64,000 bases of DNA from Candidatus Marsarchaeota archaeon (lineage in GTDB: Archaea; Micrarchaeota; Micrarchaeia; Micrarchaeales; Micrarchaeaceae): assembly GCA_023473665.1 (NCBI GenBank), contig JAMCYM010000002.1, positions 62,001 through 126,000 of the forward strand, read 5' to 3'. Below, in pieces: positions 16,039-25,859 of this stretch (within the stretch, counting starts at the first letter, position 1; every line of letters starts with the position of its first letter). Position numbers and translations under genes: made by a program. The notes under the pieces are model-generated. The model worked only from the letters and a program-made list of their open reading frames with translations, was not told where the DNA came from and did not search any database.

Positions 16039-16103
16039 CGCTATAATGCGTTTTATCAAAAGCTTAATAATTATCTTAACCACTCTGAAGTGGAGTGATG
16101 CTG

Positions 16104-16841
16104 ATGCCGAGGCGGCTGGACTATAGGAAAATTGCAGAGTATTACGACATGGTCGAATCTGGTCCAGGTGAGCTGGAGGAGCGGGTCGAGAAGGCACTCA
16201 GACATCACAAGGTCAAAACAGTCCTCGACATCACTGCCGGCACTGGAAAGCAGAGCCTATACCTAGCCGAAAGGGGCTATAAGGTGATAGCGAACGATAT
16301 AGAGCCATCAATGCTCGAAGTTGCAAGAAGCAAGGTGAAGTCCCATAGAATAAGGATGCGGTTCAATGTCGGGGACATGCGCAGCGCCAGGTTAGGCACG
16401 TTCGATGCAATCATATCGATGTACAATTCGGTGGGGCACCTGAGCAAGAGCGGATTTGCGGCGGCGCTCTCCAACATAAGTAGGAGCTTGCGCGCAGGAG
16501 GTATATACGTGTTCGACATAGTGGCAAGGGAGTTCGCCGAAGCGGGGCTCCCATCTCACGAATTTATAGGGACCGCCAAGACAATAGGGGGCACAAAGCT
16601 TGTAGTCTTCATAAGGTATTCGTACCGATCGGACGAGCTGGACGTACACCAAAGGCTCGTGGTGCAGGAGGGGTCTGCCTTGCAAAAAACGATAACGAAC
16701 TCGTGGGGCATGAAGGTCTACTACTACAAAGAGTTAGAGGAGCTGCTCTGGAGGTATGGCTTCAAGGTGCTAAAAGAGGAAAGCGTAAGAGGAGGTGCGG
16801 ACGGCAGGCGCTCCCACTTCGTTGTTGCGATGAAGTCGTGA
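16104..16841 (+). CDS. Class I SAM-dependent methyltransferase
   Basis: The protein has a Rossmann-type SAM-binding core with motif I VLDITAGTGKQSLYLAERG, a motif II acidic residue in VIANDIEP, and motif IV in FDAIISMYNSVGHL. The C-terminal part (residues 150-245) is a beta-sheet-rich region common in small-molecule methyltransferases of the methyltransf_25/11 group. GGAG lies eight bases before the ATG at 16104, which is preferred over GTG 16095 and ATG 16098. It stops 17 bases from the convergent radical SAM gene. The substrate cannot be told from sequence. Confidence 0.85.
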   Translation: MPRRLDYRKIAEYYDMVESGPGELEERVEKALRHHKVKTVLDITAGTGKQSLYLAERGYKVIANDIEPSMLEVARSKVKSHRIRMRFNVGDMRSARLGTFDAIISMYNSVGHLSKSGFAAALSNISRSLRAGGIYVFDIVAREFAEAGLPSHEFIGTAKTIGGTKLVVFIRYSYRSDELDVHQRLVVQEGSALQKTITNSWGMKVYYYKELEELLWRYGFKVLKEESVRGGADGRRSHFVVAMKS

Positions 16842-16858
16842 ACGCGCTCTTATGGGTG

Positions 16859-18247
16859 TTATGCAAGCGCGCACCTGATGTACTCGGCGAGAGCCTCTCG
16901 TCTCGAACTGCAAAGTTCCTCCGATTCCCCTCCAACATCTATAGAGCCGTACGTAGCAAGAGATTCCTTCGTGCATCCGCCCCCGCATTTAACTGGGCAT
17001 TCACTGCAATTTTTGAGATTTAACGCATAGCGCTTGTTCGCAAACTCTGTGAGCTTGTCGTAATTCACGTCAATCTCGAACCCGTCACGTCGATGCTCCA
17101 TCGCTCCGACCCTAAAGATCGGCAGCGGATCATCGCATGCATAGAAGTTCAAGTCTGGACCTAAAGCCAGCATGTAACCTGCCATGAAACCGCATCCGTA
17201 GCATGCCATAGACCAGCTGCTTCCGGCTGGAAGCACCCTCGAGTCCACATTTATGCCCTGCTCTTTGCCATTTGCTATAGCCCTAGCAATGTTCCGTGCG
17301 AAGAGGTCCAAGTCTGGAAGCTTGACGTTGTCAACGGCCCTGCCACTCATCTCGACTGGCTGGATGCTTATCGTTTCAAAGCCAAGGCTGTGCAGATAGT
17401 CTACGCATTCCTGTATGCGATTCTCCATGCCTCCGCATACGGTTGCTCTGACGGTTGCAAAATCTGCAAGCCTGCCATATCTCTTTATCTCTTCGATAGT
17501 CTTGAGCACCTCAGACGCCGAGCCGCCACCGTTGGCCAGCGGCCTGTACTTGTCCTGGAACTCAGGCAGACCGTCGAACGATAGCTCTATCCGTATGTGG
17601 TGCTCAACCAGGTATCTCACAATTTCCTCCCTCTTAGATAAGTAGACTCCGTTTGTGACTATCTCGACTTCGATCTTTGCCGTGTCTATGCCTGCTACTA
17701 TCCTCTTGAGGCTGGAGAGCGCCATGGTCGGTTCTCCCCAACCAAACAGCACAATCTTAGCAGGCTTGAAGTGCCTTACTGCATATAGAGCTGCATCCGG
17801 GTCGAGTTCCTGCCTAAGCCCCGAAACTCCTTTCTGTTCCTCTATGGCCGCACTCTCACCCCCTAGTGCAAAACAATACCTGCATCTTAAGTTGCAGGCG
17901 GTCGATACTATGAGCGAGAGCTCTCGAATTTTGTCCTTGTCTATCTTTGGGCTGAAGGAAAGTGCAGTCCCGCTCGGATACGCGGCATTGACGGATTGCA
18001 CAGTATACACGAAAGAGTCTAGCAGCTCCTCCATGCCTTCGACATTCGAATTCACAAAGTTGTGGGTCCTCGCAAATTCGTATTCGCTGTTGCTGAGCAG
18101 CGCAGCTATGTTGCCAATTGGAGTGTATGCGCATATCCTGCCGTCCTCGGTTCTGAAAAAGTAAAGCTGGGTGTTTATCCTCTTCGGAAAACCTCTCTTG
18201 CGTGTCAACGGCACGTCCTTGAAACTTGTCAGGTTGATCTGTCTCAT
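16859..18247 (-). CDS. Radical SAM/SPASM peptide-maturase-like enzyme
   Basis: The 462-residue enzyme has an N-terminal region of about 110 residues, then the radical SAM core with CxxxCxxC (Cys118, Cys122, Cys125) and a GEP motif at 171. A C-terminal SPASM domain has Cys349, 352, 371, 414, 417, 421, 425 and 446. SPASM cysteines bind auxiliary 4Fe-4S clusters and are typical of enzymes that modify ribosomally made peptides (sactipeptide, ranthipeptide, PQQ, mycofactocin pathways) or of sulfatase maturases. No sulfatase is nearby, but a Cys-rich 40-aa peptide lies in the same operon. The ATG at 18247 overlaps the stop of the 38-aa ORF, and GAGG lies upstream. Peptide maturation is inferred. 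Confidence 0.85.
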   Translation of the reverse strand: MRQINLTSFKDVPLTRKRGFPKRINTQLYFFRTEDGRICAYTPIGNIAALLSNSEYEFARTHNFVNSNVEGMEELLDSFVYTVQSVNAAYPSGTALSFSPKIDKDKIRELSLIVSTACNLRCRYCFALGGESAAIEEQKGVSGLRQELDPDAALYAVRHFKPAKIVLFGWGEPTMALSSLKRIVAGIDTAKIEVEIVTNGVYLSKREEIVRYLVEHHIRIELSFDGLPEFQDKYRPLANGGGSASEVLKTIEEIKRYGRLADFATVRATVCGGMENRIQECVDYLHSLGFETISIQPVEMSGRAVDNVKLPDLDLFARNIARAIANGKEQGINVDSRVLPAGSSWSMACYGCGFMAGYMLALGPDLNFYACDDPLPIFRVGAMEHRRDGFEIDVNYDKLTEFANKRYALNLKNCSECPVKCGGGCTKESLATYGSIDVGGESEELCSSRREALAEYIRCALA

Positions 18248-18360
18248 CCCATCGACCTCGTCCTTTTGACGCGTTTTCCGCGCAGAAGCGCGGCCGCACC
18301 TCTTGTCTGGGCTATAGCGCCATTTACCTCCGCCTCAAGCGCCCTTACTATGTCTACCAT
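18244..18360 (-). CDS. 38-aa basic small ORF coupled to Fic and radical SAM genes
   Basis: This 38-residue frame fills the space between the Fic and radical SAM genes. Its ATG overlaps the Fic stop (TGATG) and its TGA overlaps the radical SAM ATG (ATGA). It starts MVDIVRALEAEVNGAIAQTR, has no Cys or Tyr, is helical in character, and ends in an Arg/Lys-rich tail (RGKRVKRTRSMG). No ribosome-binding site is seen, so translation would depend on coupling. It could be a small accessory protein, a second substrate, or merely a coupling sequence. I do not recognise it. Confidence 0.5.
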   Translation of the reverse strand: MVDIVRALEAEVNGAIAQTRGAAALLRGKRVKRTRSMG

Positions 18361-20273
18361 CAGCTGATCTGAAGCGCGTCTTTCCAAGCGCGAAAGCTTC
18401 TCCTGCACAGCAATAAAAAATCGGTGCCGAAAGTTCCGGCGCCAAGCATCTTGCCCATGCTGGCAGCCTCTATCATGTTTAGTGAGTTGTCCTCAACATC
18501 AAGTGCCTTGAGCATCTCATTCTCGCGACCCTTCTCACCAGTCATTGACAGGAAGACGGCCATGTTCATAAGCAGGTCGTTCGAGCCGTTTACTTCCAGG
18601 CTAGTCCTGGAATGGAGGTAGCCATAGCCCATGTTCCTGCCTAAAGAATACGCGGCGTAGGCTCTCTCGGTTTTGTCTGCGTTTGCGTCATTGGCAATGC
18701 CAGTGAGCATGTTGACATAGATAGGGTTCAGACCTTCTGCAATTGAGAGATGCCCGAGAAGCAGTTTCCTGACCCTGAAGTCTCGAGCAGCTGTCTCCAC
18801 AAGTGTTTCGGCTATGCCGTCAAGATTGATCATGTCCAGTTGCTTGCCGTTCTCCTCCCTCCTGAATCGGACAAGCCATTTTATCACCTCGTCCTTTATC
18901 TCATCGCGTTCTCTGTCTATGGCTCTCAAGTGATTTTCCACGTCTGAGGTCGGAGCATTGGCGATGAACGCAAGCAGGGCGTTGAGGCTTATGTCGAGCT
19001 CCTTGTTCTTGGTATAACTATCCATTATCGTCAATGAATCAGAATTGTGCGAGGCATACCTCAGCGCGTTGAACGTCTGCGCCACCACCCGCGCATCCTT
19101 ACTGTTACTGAGTATCCTGGATACAATATCCTTATTGAGCATCCACATCTTGCCAAGTGTGCTTATGGCAAGAAGCCTCTCCAACTCAGAACCTTCCAAC
19201 GCTATGGCTCTTATCCGCTCTGCCTGTCTCTCCAACTCCGCCACCCCTCCTTTTCTCCCATCGGTAGCCCTCTTCTGCATGGAGAGCATTGCCATAGACA
19301 CCAAGTCTGGATTTTCGCTGTGTATGGCATCGACAAGAATGTCCGCATGAGTCTCAAGGTAACCTGCCATCCACACCACGCCGAGTTTTGTCCGCTTGTT
19401 TCCAGAGGAGTACAGCGCAGAAATCTCACCAGCAAGGGCGTCCTGATTCATCTTGCTATCAAAAATCATGAGGTAGTCCTTTATCAGGCGTCCCTCGTCA
19501 GTTTCGCCAATTCCAGCAGCGAACTCGCCTACGTCCATCCCTGCGCCTCTGATCATCGCGTAGAGCATGAACGACGCAAATGCATCGTAGTACTTGCAGA
19601 AATGGGTCGGGGCCAGGCTGTTGAAATAATATTCCTTCTCAGCCTTTGTCACCAGCACAGGCGCCAGTCCGTTCTTGAGCAGATACCAGTTCATGAGCAC
19701 CCTGACTGTCCTTCCGTTTCCGTCCTCGAATGGGTGTCTATAAATAAACTCTATGTGGAAGTCAAGCGCATTGGAAAAGGCTTCAGCTGCGTTCGAGGCT
19801 TGCCTGTTCAGGACCCCTGACAGTTCCGCAAGCTCATAGAGTATTTTTTCAGAACCCTCGGTTATGAAGTCTGCGACAGAGGTCATGCTCCTTCTGGGTC
19901 CGACATAGAGGTTGTTGAGCAGGTTAGAAAAGAGGGTCTCGTGGATTCCTATTATGTCCTGCGGTGTAATCTCCCTGTCTCCTATCTCGGTGATGCGCTT
20001 GTACATCTCTTTATGGTTTAGAAGCTCTATATAATCGACAAGCCTGCCGTCGCCCACTTCGAGGTCGCCGTTTATCAGCATAGAGGCCGTCGAATCGTCA
20101 AGTCTGTTGCCCTCTATCGCGCTGGAATAGAGAACCGTCTTGGCCATGTTTTCTTTTAGGAGATTTGAACCATTCGATTTAGCGGCAAACCTGTCAGAAA
20201 TCTTACCGAACAGGTAGCTTACGTAGTCGATGCCCTCACGGTCCACAGAATCCCCCTGCCATACGACGAGCAT
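18360..20273 (-). CDS. Fic-domain protein with N-terminal inhibitory helix and C-terminal HEAT-like repeats
   Basis: Fic enzymes transfer AMP or other phosphate-linked groups to protein hydroxyls. The active-site motif is complete: HPFEDGNGRTVR, residues 180-191. The N-terminal inhibitory helix motif S-x-x-x-E-G is SSAIEG (50-55), so activity is probably self-restrained (class II Fic). Residues 260-637 are a run of helix pairs resembling HEAT repeats, a likely protein- or peptide-binding solenoid. ATG 20273 lies two bases after a 9-bp hairpin; GTG 20246, preceded by GGGGGA four bases upstream, is an alternative start. It sits between the Cys-rich peptide and the radical SAM gene, so a role in that system is likely but unproven. 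Confidence 0.88.
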   Translation of the reverse strand: MLVVWQGDSVDREGIDYVSYLFGKISDRFAAKSNGSNLLKENMAKTVLYSSAIEGNRLDDSTASMLINGDLEVGDGRLVDYIELLNHKEMYKRITEIGDREITPQDIIGIHETLFSNLLNNLYVGPRRSMTSVADFITEGSEKILYELAELSGVLNRQASNAAEAFSNALDFHIEFIYRHPFEDGNGRTVRVLMNWYLLKNGLAPVLVTKAEKEYYFNSLAPTHFCKYYDAFASFMLYAMIRGAGMDVGEFAAGIGETDEGRLIKDYLMIFDSKMNQDALAGEISALYSSGNKRTKLGVVWMAGYLETHADILVDAIHSENPDLVSMAMLSMQKRATDGRKGGVAELERQAERIRAIALEGSELERLLAISTLGKMWMLNKDIVSRILSNSKDARVVAQTFNALRYASHNSDSLTIMDSYTKNKELDISLNALLAFIANAPTSDVENHLRAIDRERDEIKDEVIKWLVRFRREENGKQLDMINLDGIAETLVETAARDFRVRKLLLGHLSIAEGLNPIYVNMLTGIANDANADKTERAYAAYSLGRNMGYGYLHSRTSLEVNGSNDLLMNMAVFLSMTGEKGRENEMLKALDVEDNSLNMIEAASMGKMLGAGTFGTDFLLLCRRSFRAWKDALQIS

Positions 20274-20275
20274 AA

Positions 20276-20298
20276 GCAGACCTGAAAGGCAGGTCTGC
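20276..20298 (-). promoter_or_regulatory. Hairpin between the 40-aa peptide gene and the Fic gene
   Basis: On the minus-strand RNA, GCAGACCTG and CAGGTCTGC form a perfect 9-bp stem with a five-base loop. It follows the peptide stop by eight bases and ends two bases before the first Fic ATG, covering the place where a ribosome-binding site would be. Such intercistronic hairpins often let a peptide-precursor gene be expressed well above its maturation genes, by partial termination, RNA stabilisation or translational repression. The fold is seen; the function is inferred. Confidence 0.6.
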
Positions 20299-20306
20299 GG
20301 AGTCCG

Positions 20307-20429
20307 TTACTTGGTACTGCATTCGTTTGAGCAGCCGAAGCAACTGCCCACGGAAGATATCTTGTCCAGATCGACCTCTTCGGACTTTTCGTTGTACTTA
20401 GAGGCGATCCATCTGTTCTTCGAGTTCAT
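20307..20429 (-). CDS. 40-aa Cys-rich peptide, candidate radical-SAM-modified (RiPP) precursor
   Basis: A 40-residue frame with a charged leader-like part (MNSKNRWIASKYNEKSEEVD, then LDKIS) and a C-terminal Cys-rich part SVGSCFGCSNECSTK, with Cys30, Cys33 and Cys37 (C-x2-C-x3-C). A highly charged leader followed by a Gly/Ser/Cys core is the classic layout of a sactipeptide or ranthipeptide precursor. The first gene of the unit, it has a TATA-like box 32-40 bases upstream and only about ten bases of leader; no GGTG site is seen. The radical SAM/SPASM gene three ORFs downstream would be the modifying enzyme. It could instead be a small metal-binding peptide. Confidence 0.68.
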   Translation of the reverse strand: MNSKNRWIASKYNEKSEEVDLDKISSVGSCFGCSNECSTK

Positions 20430-20460
20430 TGCATCCCTATTTGGGTTTATGAAAAACGAC

Positions 20461-20469
20461 AAATATAAG
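20461..20469 (-). promoter_or_regulatory. TATA-like box of the peptide-Fic-radical SAM unit
   Basis: On the minus strand the sequence reads AAAAGCTTATATTTG, with TTATATTT as box A. A start site about 25 bases downstream would fall near 20440, giving a roughly ten-base leader before the ATG at 20429. The surrounding 20430-20520 stretch is clearly richer in A and T than the flanking genes. Confidence 0.5.
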
Positions 20470-20603
20470 CTTTTGGTTACATCTTTGCAGTTGACGATGC
20501 AATCTTATTTGACTGGCGATGTGCGGGTAGCGATGGTTTCTACTCTTCAAGAAGCATACGGCTCTATTATTATAGCCTTCCGGCCTGTCTTCAAAATTGG
20601 GTT

Positions 20604-24794: not shown

Positions 24795-25859
24795 ATGCCA
24801 GGCGCAGCAAAGTTCATCGGTCTGGGCATTACGGCATTGAAGAGCAATTTCTCATCGCTCAGGGTGCCGTACAAGCTCAATTTCGCAATAACTTACTGGT
24901 GCCAGAGCCGCTGCCTTTCATGCAACATCTGGCAGTTTAAGCCAAAAGGCGAGCTTACCCTAGAAGAGATCCGCGAGTTCGCGAGGAAGAACGCATACTT
25001 CAAATGGATAGAGCTCACTGGCGGCGAGCCGTTCCTTAGGCCCGACATTACTGAAATAGCAAGGGCCTTCTACGAGACCTCGCGCGGCCTTTATGTCATG
25101 ACGATACCGACAAACTCGCTCTGCAGCCACGAGATGGTGGTGAGGCGCGTCGAGGATATACTTATGCTGGGCATACCGAAGCTTGCAGTGACCGTGAGCC
25201 TTGACGGCTATCGCGAGCTGCATGACAAGATACGCGGCGTGCCGGGCAACTACGACCGCGCCATAGAGATGTTCAAGCGCCTAAAGGAACTGGGCATGCG
25301 CCACAAAAACCTCTACGTCGTGTTCGGCTACACAATGAGCAAGTACAACCAGTGGCAGCTGGAGCGCACCTATACAGAAGTAAAGAAATCCATACCGAGC
25401 ATAACGCGCAACGACTTCCATATAAACGTGGCGCAGGTATCTTCGAACTACTACGGTAACTCCAGCATGAGCCTCGTTGCCGACAGCGATGCGATGATGC
25501 ACGAGCTAGCAGACTTCGTGTCGCTGCGCAGGCGCGAGTTCGGCATCATAGGCACGATTGAGAACGCATTTCTGCGCACTCTCCTCCAGTATCTCAAGAC
25601 CGGGAAGATGCCATTGAAGAGCCGCAGCCTCGACGCCTCTTTCTTCCTCGACAGCTACGGCAACATATTCCCGTCTATAATGTGGGACCGGAAGATAGCC
25701 AGCCTGCGCGAGATAAACTACGACGTGCAGAGCGTATGGCGCGGCGAGCTTGCCAACGACGTCCGCAGGGAGATAGCCGAAGGCAAGGAGCCCAAGCAGT
25801 GGACCGCCTGCGAGGCCTTCCAGTCCCTGACCGGAAGGATTACCAGCTTGATAAAGTAA
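24795..25859 (+). CDS. Radical SAM protein, MoaA/PqqE-like core
   Basis: The radical SAM cluster motif is WCQSRCLSCNIW (CxxxCxxC) near residue 36, followed by the family GGEP motif in WIELTGGEPFLRPDI and a SLDG motif. The core spans about residues 25-240. The C-terminal extension (260-354) has a SPASM-like layout (DSYGNIFPSIMWDRKIASLRE) but only one Cys (WTACEAF), so a full set of auxiliary cluster ligands is absent. GGGTGA lies before the ATG at 24795. The substrate is unknown and no obvious peptide gene is adjacent. Confidence 0.83.
   Translation: MPGAAKFIGLGITALKSNFSSLRVPYKLNFAITYWCQSRCLSCNIWQFKPKGELTLEEIREFARKNAYFKWIELTGGEPFLRPDITEIARAFYETSRGLYVMTIPTNSLCSHEMVVRRVEDILMLGIPKLAVTVSLDGYRELHDKIRGVPGNYDRAIEMFKRLKELGMRHKNLYVVFGYTMSKYNQWQLERTYTEVKKSIPSITRNDFHINVAQVSSNYYGNSSMSLVADSDAMMHELADFVSLRRREFGIIGTIENAFLRTLLQYLKTGKMPLKSRSLDASFFLDSYGNIFPSIMWDRKIASLREINYDVQSVWRGELANDVRREIAEGKEPKQWTACEAFQSLTGRITSLIK

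Follow-up and report, generated by a model that had tools for sequence, protein, structure and literature searches.

A probable three-gene peptide-modification cassette in a Micrarchaeales archaeon, with a Fic-HEAT partner predicted to gain its tail by -1 frameshifting

The DNA considered here, 64,000 nucleotides in length ('the window', with coordinates counted from its first letter), is from a Candidatus Marsarchaeota archaeon that has a 0.78 Mb genome, on three contigs and 96% complete. On the minus strand, from 20429 to 16859, there is probably a three-gene cassette resembling those for ribosomally synthesized and post-translationally modified peptides (RiPPs). That is, genes for a small, Cys-rich precursor peptide, for a protein with a Fic domain and a HEAT solenoid (Fic-HEAT), and for a radical S-adenosylmethionine (SAM)/SPASM maturase are found in succession, with a predicted -1 frameshift adding a tail to Fic-HEAT. 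An additional, 38-residue open reading frame (ORF) between the latter two genes would then not be a separate gene. This overall explanation, of a RiPP-type cassette which sits on a genomic island and which includes a frameshift-tailed Fic-HEAT, is given a probability of roughly two in three. The cassette, its peptides, and the slippery heptamer are conserved between genomes and the -1 frame is under constraint, with slippage and thioether formation being predicted from those sequences. The parts of the cassette are:

20307..20429, minus strand: precursor peptide gene, 40 residues, with Trp/Lys leader and core GSCFGCSNECSTK; homologues are at the same place in genomes G063, G131, and G025
18360..20273, minus strand: Fic-HEAT protein, zero-frame product (PF02661; homologues; AlphaFold2 model)
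18414..18420, minus strand: slippery heptamer T_TTT_TTA, the predicted -1 frameshift site, in the zero frame of the Fic gene, context GA[T TTT TTA]
18244..18420, minus strand: predicted -1 frame tail, (F/L)IAVQEKLSRLERRASDQLMVDIVRALEAEVNGAIAQTRGAAALLRGKRVKRTRSMG, including the 38-residue ORF (18244-18360); the -1 frame is open in four cassettes
16859..18247, minus strand: putative radical SAM/SPASM peptide maturase, 462 residues (PF04055; homologues 43% and 35-36% identical)

A preliminary description of the window had proposed this minus-strand arrangement of four open frames, and all four indeed are present. Comparison was with 301 genomes of the same phylum (here with G as handles for genomes and L for loci). 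When that set is searched with the maturase, the sole intact relatives are those of G063, which is from another family (43% identical), and of G131 (~36%), both of which genomes possess peptide, Fic-HEAT, small ORF, and radical SAM gene in the same order. Searching with Fic-HEAT adds G025, in which that order is retained up to the end of a contig that stops 60 bases past the radical SAM start, and adds as well G007, G158, and G099, all with reduced versions. Were the proposed peptide spurious, then homologous radical SAM enzymes would be expected to lack a conserved small peptide beside them. Such peptides instead are found, which favours a RiPP-type cassette with conserved precursor, maturase, and Fic-HEAT as a fixed partner. 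Chance does not account for the arrangement, given its recurrence in G063, G131, and G025 and the peptide matches described below.

The peptides themselves are MNSKNRWIASKYNEKSEEVDLDKISSVGSCFGCSNECSTK in the window, MESIEWVPSKSNKKVVNLTKKLGGKACGPDECITYCVHSECIGF in G063, MSNKKQILVWTKLNADKSVQKNSIFLKRKDKASACYYEDCESTA in G131, and MRERKTEKSMWTIVKRSTRKEMKKRIIINRKAKTSVCYYQDCESTA in G025. Two Cys, one of them C-terminal, are invariant across these four, as is a Trp within the basic leader, with the core otherwise variable. Every core nevertheless contains Cys, two or three further residues, Asp or Glu, and then Cys, i.e., Cys-x(2,3)-[Asp/Glu]-Cys. The exact C-x2-C-x3-C pattern that had been suggested from the window peptide is not conserved, that is, but a Cys/acid motif along with the leader Trp is. 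This motif takes the form of Cys-x3-[DE]-Cys in G131 (CYYEDC), in G025 (CYYQDC), and twice in G063 (CGPDEC and CVHSEC), versus Cys-x2-Glu-Cys in the window. A small precursor with conserved leader and variable core thus is kept beside the maturase in four cassettes, as is seen with RiPPs. A profile of the four peptides, as searched against the phylum set, recovered exactly those four below an E-value of 1e-16, with no further convincing orphan peptides found there, and decayed peptide-gene remnants are seen in G007 and G158.

The last gene of the cassette matches Pfam Radical_SAM with E 4.5e-19. As had been described, it encodes all of the radical SAM and SPASM cysteines: a CxxxCxxC motif (C118, C122, C125) and seven downstream, SPASM-type Cys (C352, C371, C414, C417, C421, C425, C446), all invariant in three homologues. 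The best NCBIfam match for all three of these members is PapB (NF047865), with other RiPP maturases next; for the window enzyme the PapB match is at E 8e-32 and 110.7 bits, this versus a cut-off of 340 bits. The nearest solved structure, by profile, is that of the SCIFF maturase CteB (5wgg, E 3.2e-25). These likenesses support assignment as a ranthipeptide/SCIFF-type radical SAM/SPASM maturase, and a ranthipeptide-type pathway, one of two types (with sactipeptides) previously suggested, is consistent with PapB and CteB as closest matches, though these are far below family cut-offs. An AlphaFold2 model of the maturase, with a mean predicted local distance difference test (pLDDT) score of 57, is too poor for fold comparison.

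PapB joins Cys to Asp or Glu by thioether within CX3D/E motifs, and will tolerate n=0-6 intervening residues (PMC9413430). CX3D/E is present in G131, in G025, and twice in G063, while the Cys-x2-Glu of the window falls within the range that PapB tolerates (PMC9413430). With PapB as best relative, Cys-Asp/Glu thioethers therefore are the most likely product. Weighing against such an assignment is that the maturase scores below the cut-offs of all known maturase families, that of PapB included, that no PqqD/RiPP recognition element (RRE) domain is matched in Pfam up to E 1, and that neither protease nor exporter was found within the cassette. Not every RiPP maturase has a detectable RRE. The low scores along with the missing protease and exporter may be viewed, from a different perspective, as pointing to some other product, whether another modification (a sactionine, a carbon-carbon cyclophane, or a decarboxylation) or a redox cofactor derived from the peptide, in place of a ranthipeptide. 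That is a possibility worth retaining, if tentatively, but all three members match PapB best, and this, along with the recurrence of Cys plus an acidic residue in all of the cores, argues for the thioethers.

Two observations on radical SAM genes may be added. In G131 there is no ATG, GTG, or TTG at the expected start of the radical SAM gene (L068:10731); ATA or ATT directly after AGGTG there aligns with the TTG of G025, and a non-standard start codon is possible. A second, unrelated radical SAM gene is found in the window at 24795-25859 (PF04055, E 1.3e-16), several kb off the cassette.

The 38-residue ORF overlaps the Fic stop as TGATG, and its own stop overlaps the radical SAM start as ATGA. 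The two middle frames had been described as translationally coupled genes. The overlap indeed is present, but the small ORF most likely is instead a C-terminal tail to Fic-HEAT, as translated via a programmed -1 frameshift. T_TTT_TTA is found at the same place in six of seven cassette-type Fic-HEAT genes (window, G063, G131, G025, G007, and G158), with C_TTT_TTA at that site in the seventh, G099. This is a zero-frame X_XXY_YYZ heptamer, as is the rule for ribosomal slippage (PMC8211752), it leads into an open -1 frame, and six genomes conserve both the site and the -1 sequence. The heptamer is also the sole in-frame T_TTT_TTA among the sampled genes of the window (45 genes), G007, G025, and G158, with G063 having two, both in this gene. 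The codons involved are rare in the window, where TTA accounts for 1.9% of Leu and TTT for 14.5% of Phe. The chance of a Phe-Leu pair being encoded as TTT.TTA, given local codon usage, consequently is 0.0028 for the window, and is 0.013 for G025, 0.021 for G007, 0.064 for G063, and 0.37 for AT-rich G131.

Downstream of the heptamer, no stop interrupts the -1 frame before the end of the small ORF in any of the four cassettes. From heptamer to Fic stop, substitutions are most numerous at zero-frame position 2, corresponding to position 3 of the -1 frame (5/10/6 by position for window/G158 and 1/4/2 for G025/G131), while upstream of the heptamer they are most numerous at zero-frame position 3 (16/13/27 and 22/15/32, respectively). 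The similarity of the -1 peptides is far greater than that from random synonymous recoding of the Fic frame, at P 5e-5 for the four cassettes and P 5e-5 as well for window/G007/G158, with 0/20000 recodings as high across the six genomes, a null which, to the detriment of the argument, treats the synonymous sites of homologues as independent. The slip region furthermore tops a sliding test along the Fic gene (146-156 windows). In six of the seven genes no -1 frame start codon lies between the heptamer and the nearest upstream stop, and in G158 that stop abuts the heptamer. The predicted tail terminates upon the first maturase codon in the window (ATGA) and within ~10 bases of the maturase start in the other cassettes.

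Other considerations detract from frameshifting. The +1 frame score also is raised at the slip region, such that nucleotide conservation as such accounts for some of the signal, and there is a TAA in the -1 frame of G007, though the G007 cassette is broken. A conserved stimulatory RNA structure 3' of the heptamer was not found in the four cassettes (z -0.01 to +1.5); such downstream structure is usual for -1 frameshifting, but not obligatory. Shine-Dalgarno-like sequences precede the small-ORF ATG in G063 (GAGGTG) and G131 (GAGGT), so separate initiation is possible there, leaving room for both modes, and codon 4 of the -1 frame is a potential start (GTG, TTG, or ATG) in five of the seven genes. 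The small ORF, or a longer form beginning at that codon 4, consequently might be viewed instead as an independent gene, coupled to fic, with the T run incidental, a view with which the TGATG of the window and the similar ORF lengths also are consistent. I consider this to be rather unlikely. It leaves unexplained a rare-codon T_TTT_TTA at one place in six genomes, the -1 frame constraint starts at the slip site, i.e., 5' of the small-ORF ATG, and codon 4 is ATA in G131 and G025, with no ribosome-binding site. Conservation of the site, constraint on the -1 frame, and the absent -1 start together fit with a programmed -1 frameshift, that is, and not with an independent small gene.

The Fic gene is 637 codons in length, or probably 628 as counted from a GTG at 20246, which is where homologues begin. 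It matches Pfam Fic with E 2.1e-16, and of five homologues three have recognised HEAT repeats. The AlphaFold model (pLDDT 83) consists of a Fic domain and then a solenoid of helical repeats, uncertain only in its final 45 residues, and its best fold matches are Fic proteins such as FICD, followed by armadillo/HEAT-type solenoids. As is characteristic of class II Fic proteins, each of the seven genes retains both an intact active-site motif and an intact N-terminal inhibitory motif (HPFEDGNGR and SSAIEGN in the window), and regulated nucleotide transfer thus would be expected. In G131 and G025 the Fic motif has GNKR, which also is present in Doc-type kinases, so Fic chemistry may differ between members.

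Not all of these Fic-HEAT genes remain within complete cassettes. In both G007 and G158 the Fic gene is intact, the peptide gene is frame-broken, and the radical SAM gene is absent, with loss of the maturase thereby coinciding with peptide decay, while in G099 peptide and maturase have been lost, leaving Fic-HEAT alone. Changes between the G007 and G158 Fic-HEAT genes, at 234/167/396 by codon position, indicate purifying selection. Fic-HEAT therefore also works without peptide and maturase, which is a point against the explanation given above. More distant Fic-HEAT genes, in another family (L055:8491-10596, L056:8268-10322, L057:9068-11074, and L058:8938-11010), have no peptide or radical SAM gene and occur in a repeated, housekeeping-like neighbourhood of HAD-type hydrolase-, sugar nucleotidyltransferase-, and phosphodiesterase-like genes (as read from the sequences), suggesting an older role. 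From this persistence of selection, along with these distant settings, it seems that Fic-HEAT existed beforehand and was recruited into the cassette.

The cassette is also mobile, residing on a small, gained island. In G002, of the same genus as the window, the two flanking genes are ~145 bases apart (L129) and the cassette is absent, such that cassette plus a neighbouring methyltransferase gene represent an island of ~4.5 kb which is not present there. In G001, too, a flanking gene shared with the window and G002 is not followed by the cassette. Maturase remnants, decayed in G026 and G039 and fragmentary in G018, are located at L050:9038-10283, L051:9634-9951, L052:9352-9540, and L053:3213-3428; no Fic-HEAT is detectable near them, and they point to repeated gain and loss. 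Among viruses no homologues of the maturase were found, there being one distant, Fic-only match, and a single-sequence search of wider genome contigs found only distant bacterial radical SAM genes.

A patchy, island-borne, and repeatedly decaying distribution might be taken, along with the conserved class II inhibitory motif, to indicate a conflict module. Fic-HEAT in that case would be a nucleotidyl-transferase effector, i.e., an abortive-infection protein or toxin comparable to SoFic, with the modified peptide serving as regulator or antitoxin, and the PADLOC models SoFic and PDC-S04 do match the Fic domain. Those matches span the generic Fic fold only, however, the more distant Fic-HEAT genes have housekeeping genes as neighbours, and a Fic-HEAT that stays intact and under purifying selection following peptide and maturase loss is unexpected for an unneutralised toxin, all of which render this explanation unlikely. 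That the frame change stems from RNA polymerase slippage on the six T, or from an indel or assembly error, is very improbable, a homopolymer run notwithstanding, as six T are short for polymerase slippage, the conserved final A and tandem zero-frame codons are of the ribosomal form, and the same zero-frame stop and heptamer in six separate genomes rule out assembly error, including one splitting a single Fic gene.

If the cassette is of the RiPP type with a frameshift-tailed Fic-HEAT, then it may be envisaged as functioning as follows. From one promoter and one transcript would come precursor peptide, Fic-HEAT, and maturase. The maturase would bind the Trp-containing leader and join core Cys to nearby residues, likely as Cys-Asp/Glu, a step for which the peptides and the enzyme both argue well. 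Ribosomes translating fic are predicted, from the comparisons above, to slip back one base at T_TTT_TTA, which is at the end of the HEAT solenoid, with a fraction of Fic-HEAT thereby gaining a helical, basic tail of 58 residues. As slipped ribosomes would terminate at the radical SAM start, one signal could set both the ratio of tailed to untailed Fic and synthesis of the maturase. More speculatively, the tail might dock Fic-HEAT on maturase or peptide, with the Fic domain then perhaps transferring a nucleotide to a Ser, Thr, or Tyr near the core or instead to a shared target. As a whole, i.e., as an archaeal RiPP pathway in which a -1 frameshift both adds a docking tail and meters the maturase, and in which the peptide receives thioethers as well as a nucleotide, this fuller scheme is doubtful.

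Surrounding features within the window are:

20462..20469, minus strand: TATA-like box, CTTATATT, the probable operon promoter (as read from sequence), 33 bases 5' of the peptide ATG
20276..20298, minus strand: perfect 9-bp hairpin in the spacer separating the peptide and Fic genes (fold z -3.3 over 20262-20310)
16039..20573, no strand: island with cassette and methyltransferase gene (flanking genes ~145 bases apart in same-genus G002, L129)
16095..16841, plus strand: class I SAM methyltransferase gene within the island, in convergent orientation to the radical SAM gene (PF13649)

The TATA-like box, ahead of the peptide gene, agrees with the single visible promoter that had been described, and A/T-rich, TATA-like stretches are found upstream of the peptide gene in G063, G131, and G025 as well. 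The hairpin is a possible attenuator or processing site, perhaps favouring peptide over enzyme; none was seen by eye between these genes in the other cassettes. The methyltransferase gene is directly beyond the radical SAM gene in both window and G131 (L068:8589-9323), which are the two loci readable on that side. The two methyltransferases look unrelated, or at best weakly alike, sharing only 24% identity over 89 residues, and the gene is not claimed as a shared part of the cassette. In G131 a CPBP-type membrane protease-like gene (L068:6411-7229; motif by eye) lies about 2 kb past the radical SAM gene, with translation-factor-like genes in between. CPBP-type membrane proteases occur in bacteriocin systems. 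A neighbouring Nop56-type gene shows the genome to be archaeal, and its 0.78 Mb are in keeping with the DPANN assignment that had been suggested.

The cassette may be compared with systems already described. As with PapA/PapB, a short, Cys-rich precursor is found beside a radical SAM/SPASM enzyme for which PapB is the best NCBIfam match, but the cassette is archaeal, possesses a Fic-HEAT partner, has one or two motifs per peptide rather than six, has Cys-x2-Glu as its motif in the window, and scores well short of the PapB cut-off, as noted. With CteB of the SCIFF system it shares a thioether-forming type of radical SAM/SPASM enzyme that has an N-terminal extension before the barrel, but its peptide is without the six-Cys-in-forty-five motif and the maturase reaches 78 bits versus a cut-off of 425. 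Fic-HEAT resembles FICD and other class II Fic proteins in fold, in its HxFx[DE]GN[GK]R active site, and in its N-terminal (S/T)xxxE(G/N) inhibitory motif, FICD being the Protein Data Bank entry nearest to it in sequence (E 1.6e-28) and one of the top matches by fold. It differs in having a HEAT solenoid rather than tetratricopeptide repeats, in its setting within a peptide-modification cassette, and in the predicted, frameshift-encoded tail.

For archaeal cellular genes, -1 frameshifting has been confirmed only with the alpha-fucosidase of Saccharolobus, the other archaeal cases being in a few haloviruses (PMC8211752, PMC8037382). That gene, fucA1 of Saccharolobus solfataricus, similarly is cellular and has an X_XXY_YYZ heptamer, its two overlapping frames being joined by -1 slippage. 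It requires the slip for any activity, however, whereas slippage in the cassette, as predicted from sequence, would add only a tail, and most relatives do not retain the fucA1 site as a split gene, whereas the cassette heptamer is conserved across genera.

The cassette thus presents a testable case for -1 frameshifting, one with comparative support and that is kept across genera and across two families of one archaeal phylum. No radical SAM RiPP system with a Fic or AMPylation partner was found in the literature searched, the single match being a pan-genome study without relation to it, which is weak evidence as subscription journals were mostly outside of that search. As far as that literature goes, this would be the first peptide-modification cassette to have a Fic enzyme as a core partner, and it offers as such a way into the chemistry and signalling of archaea whose genomes are very small.

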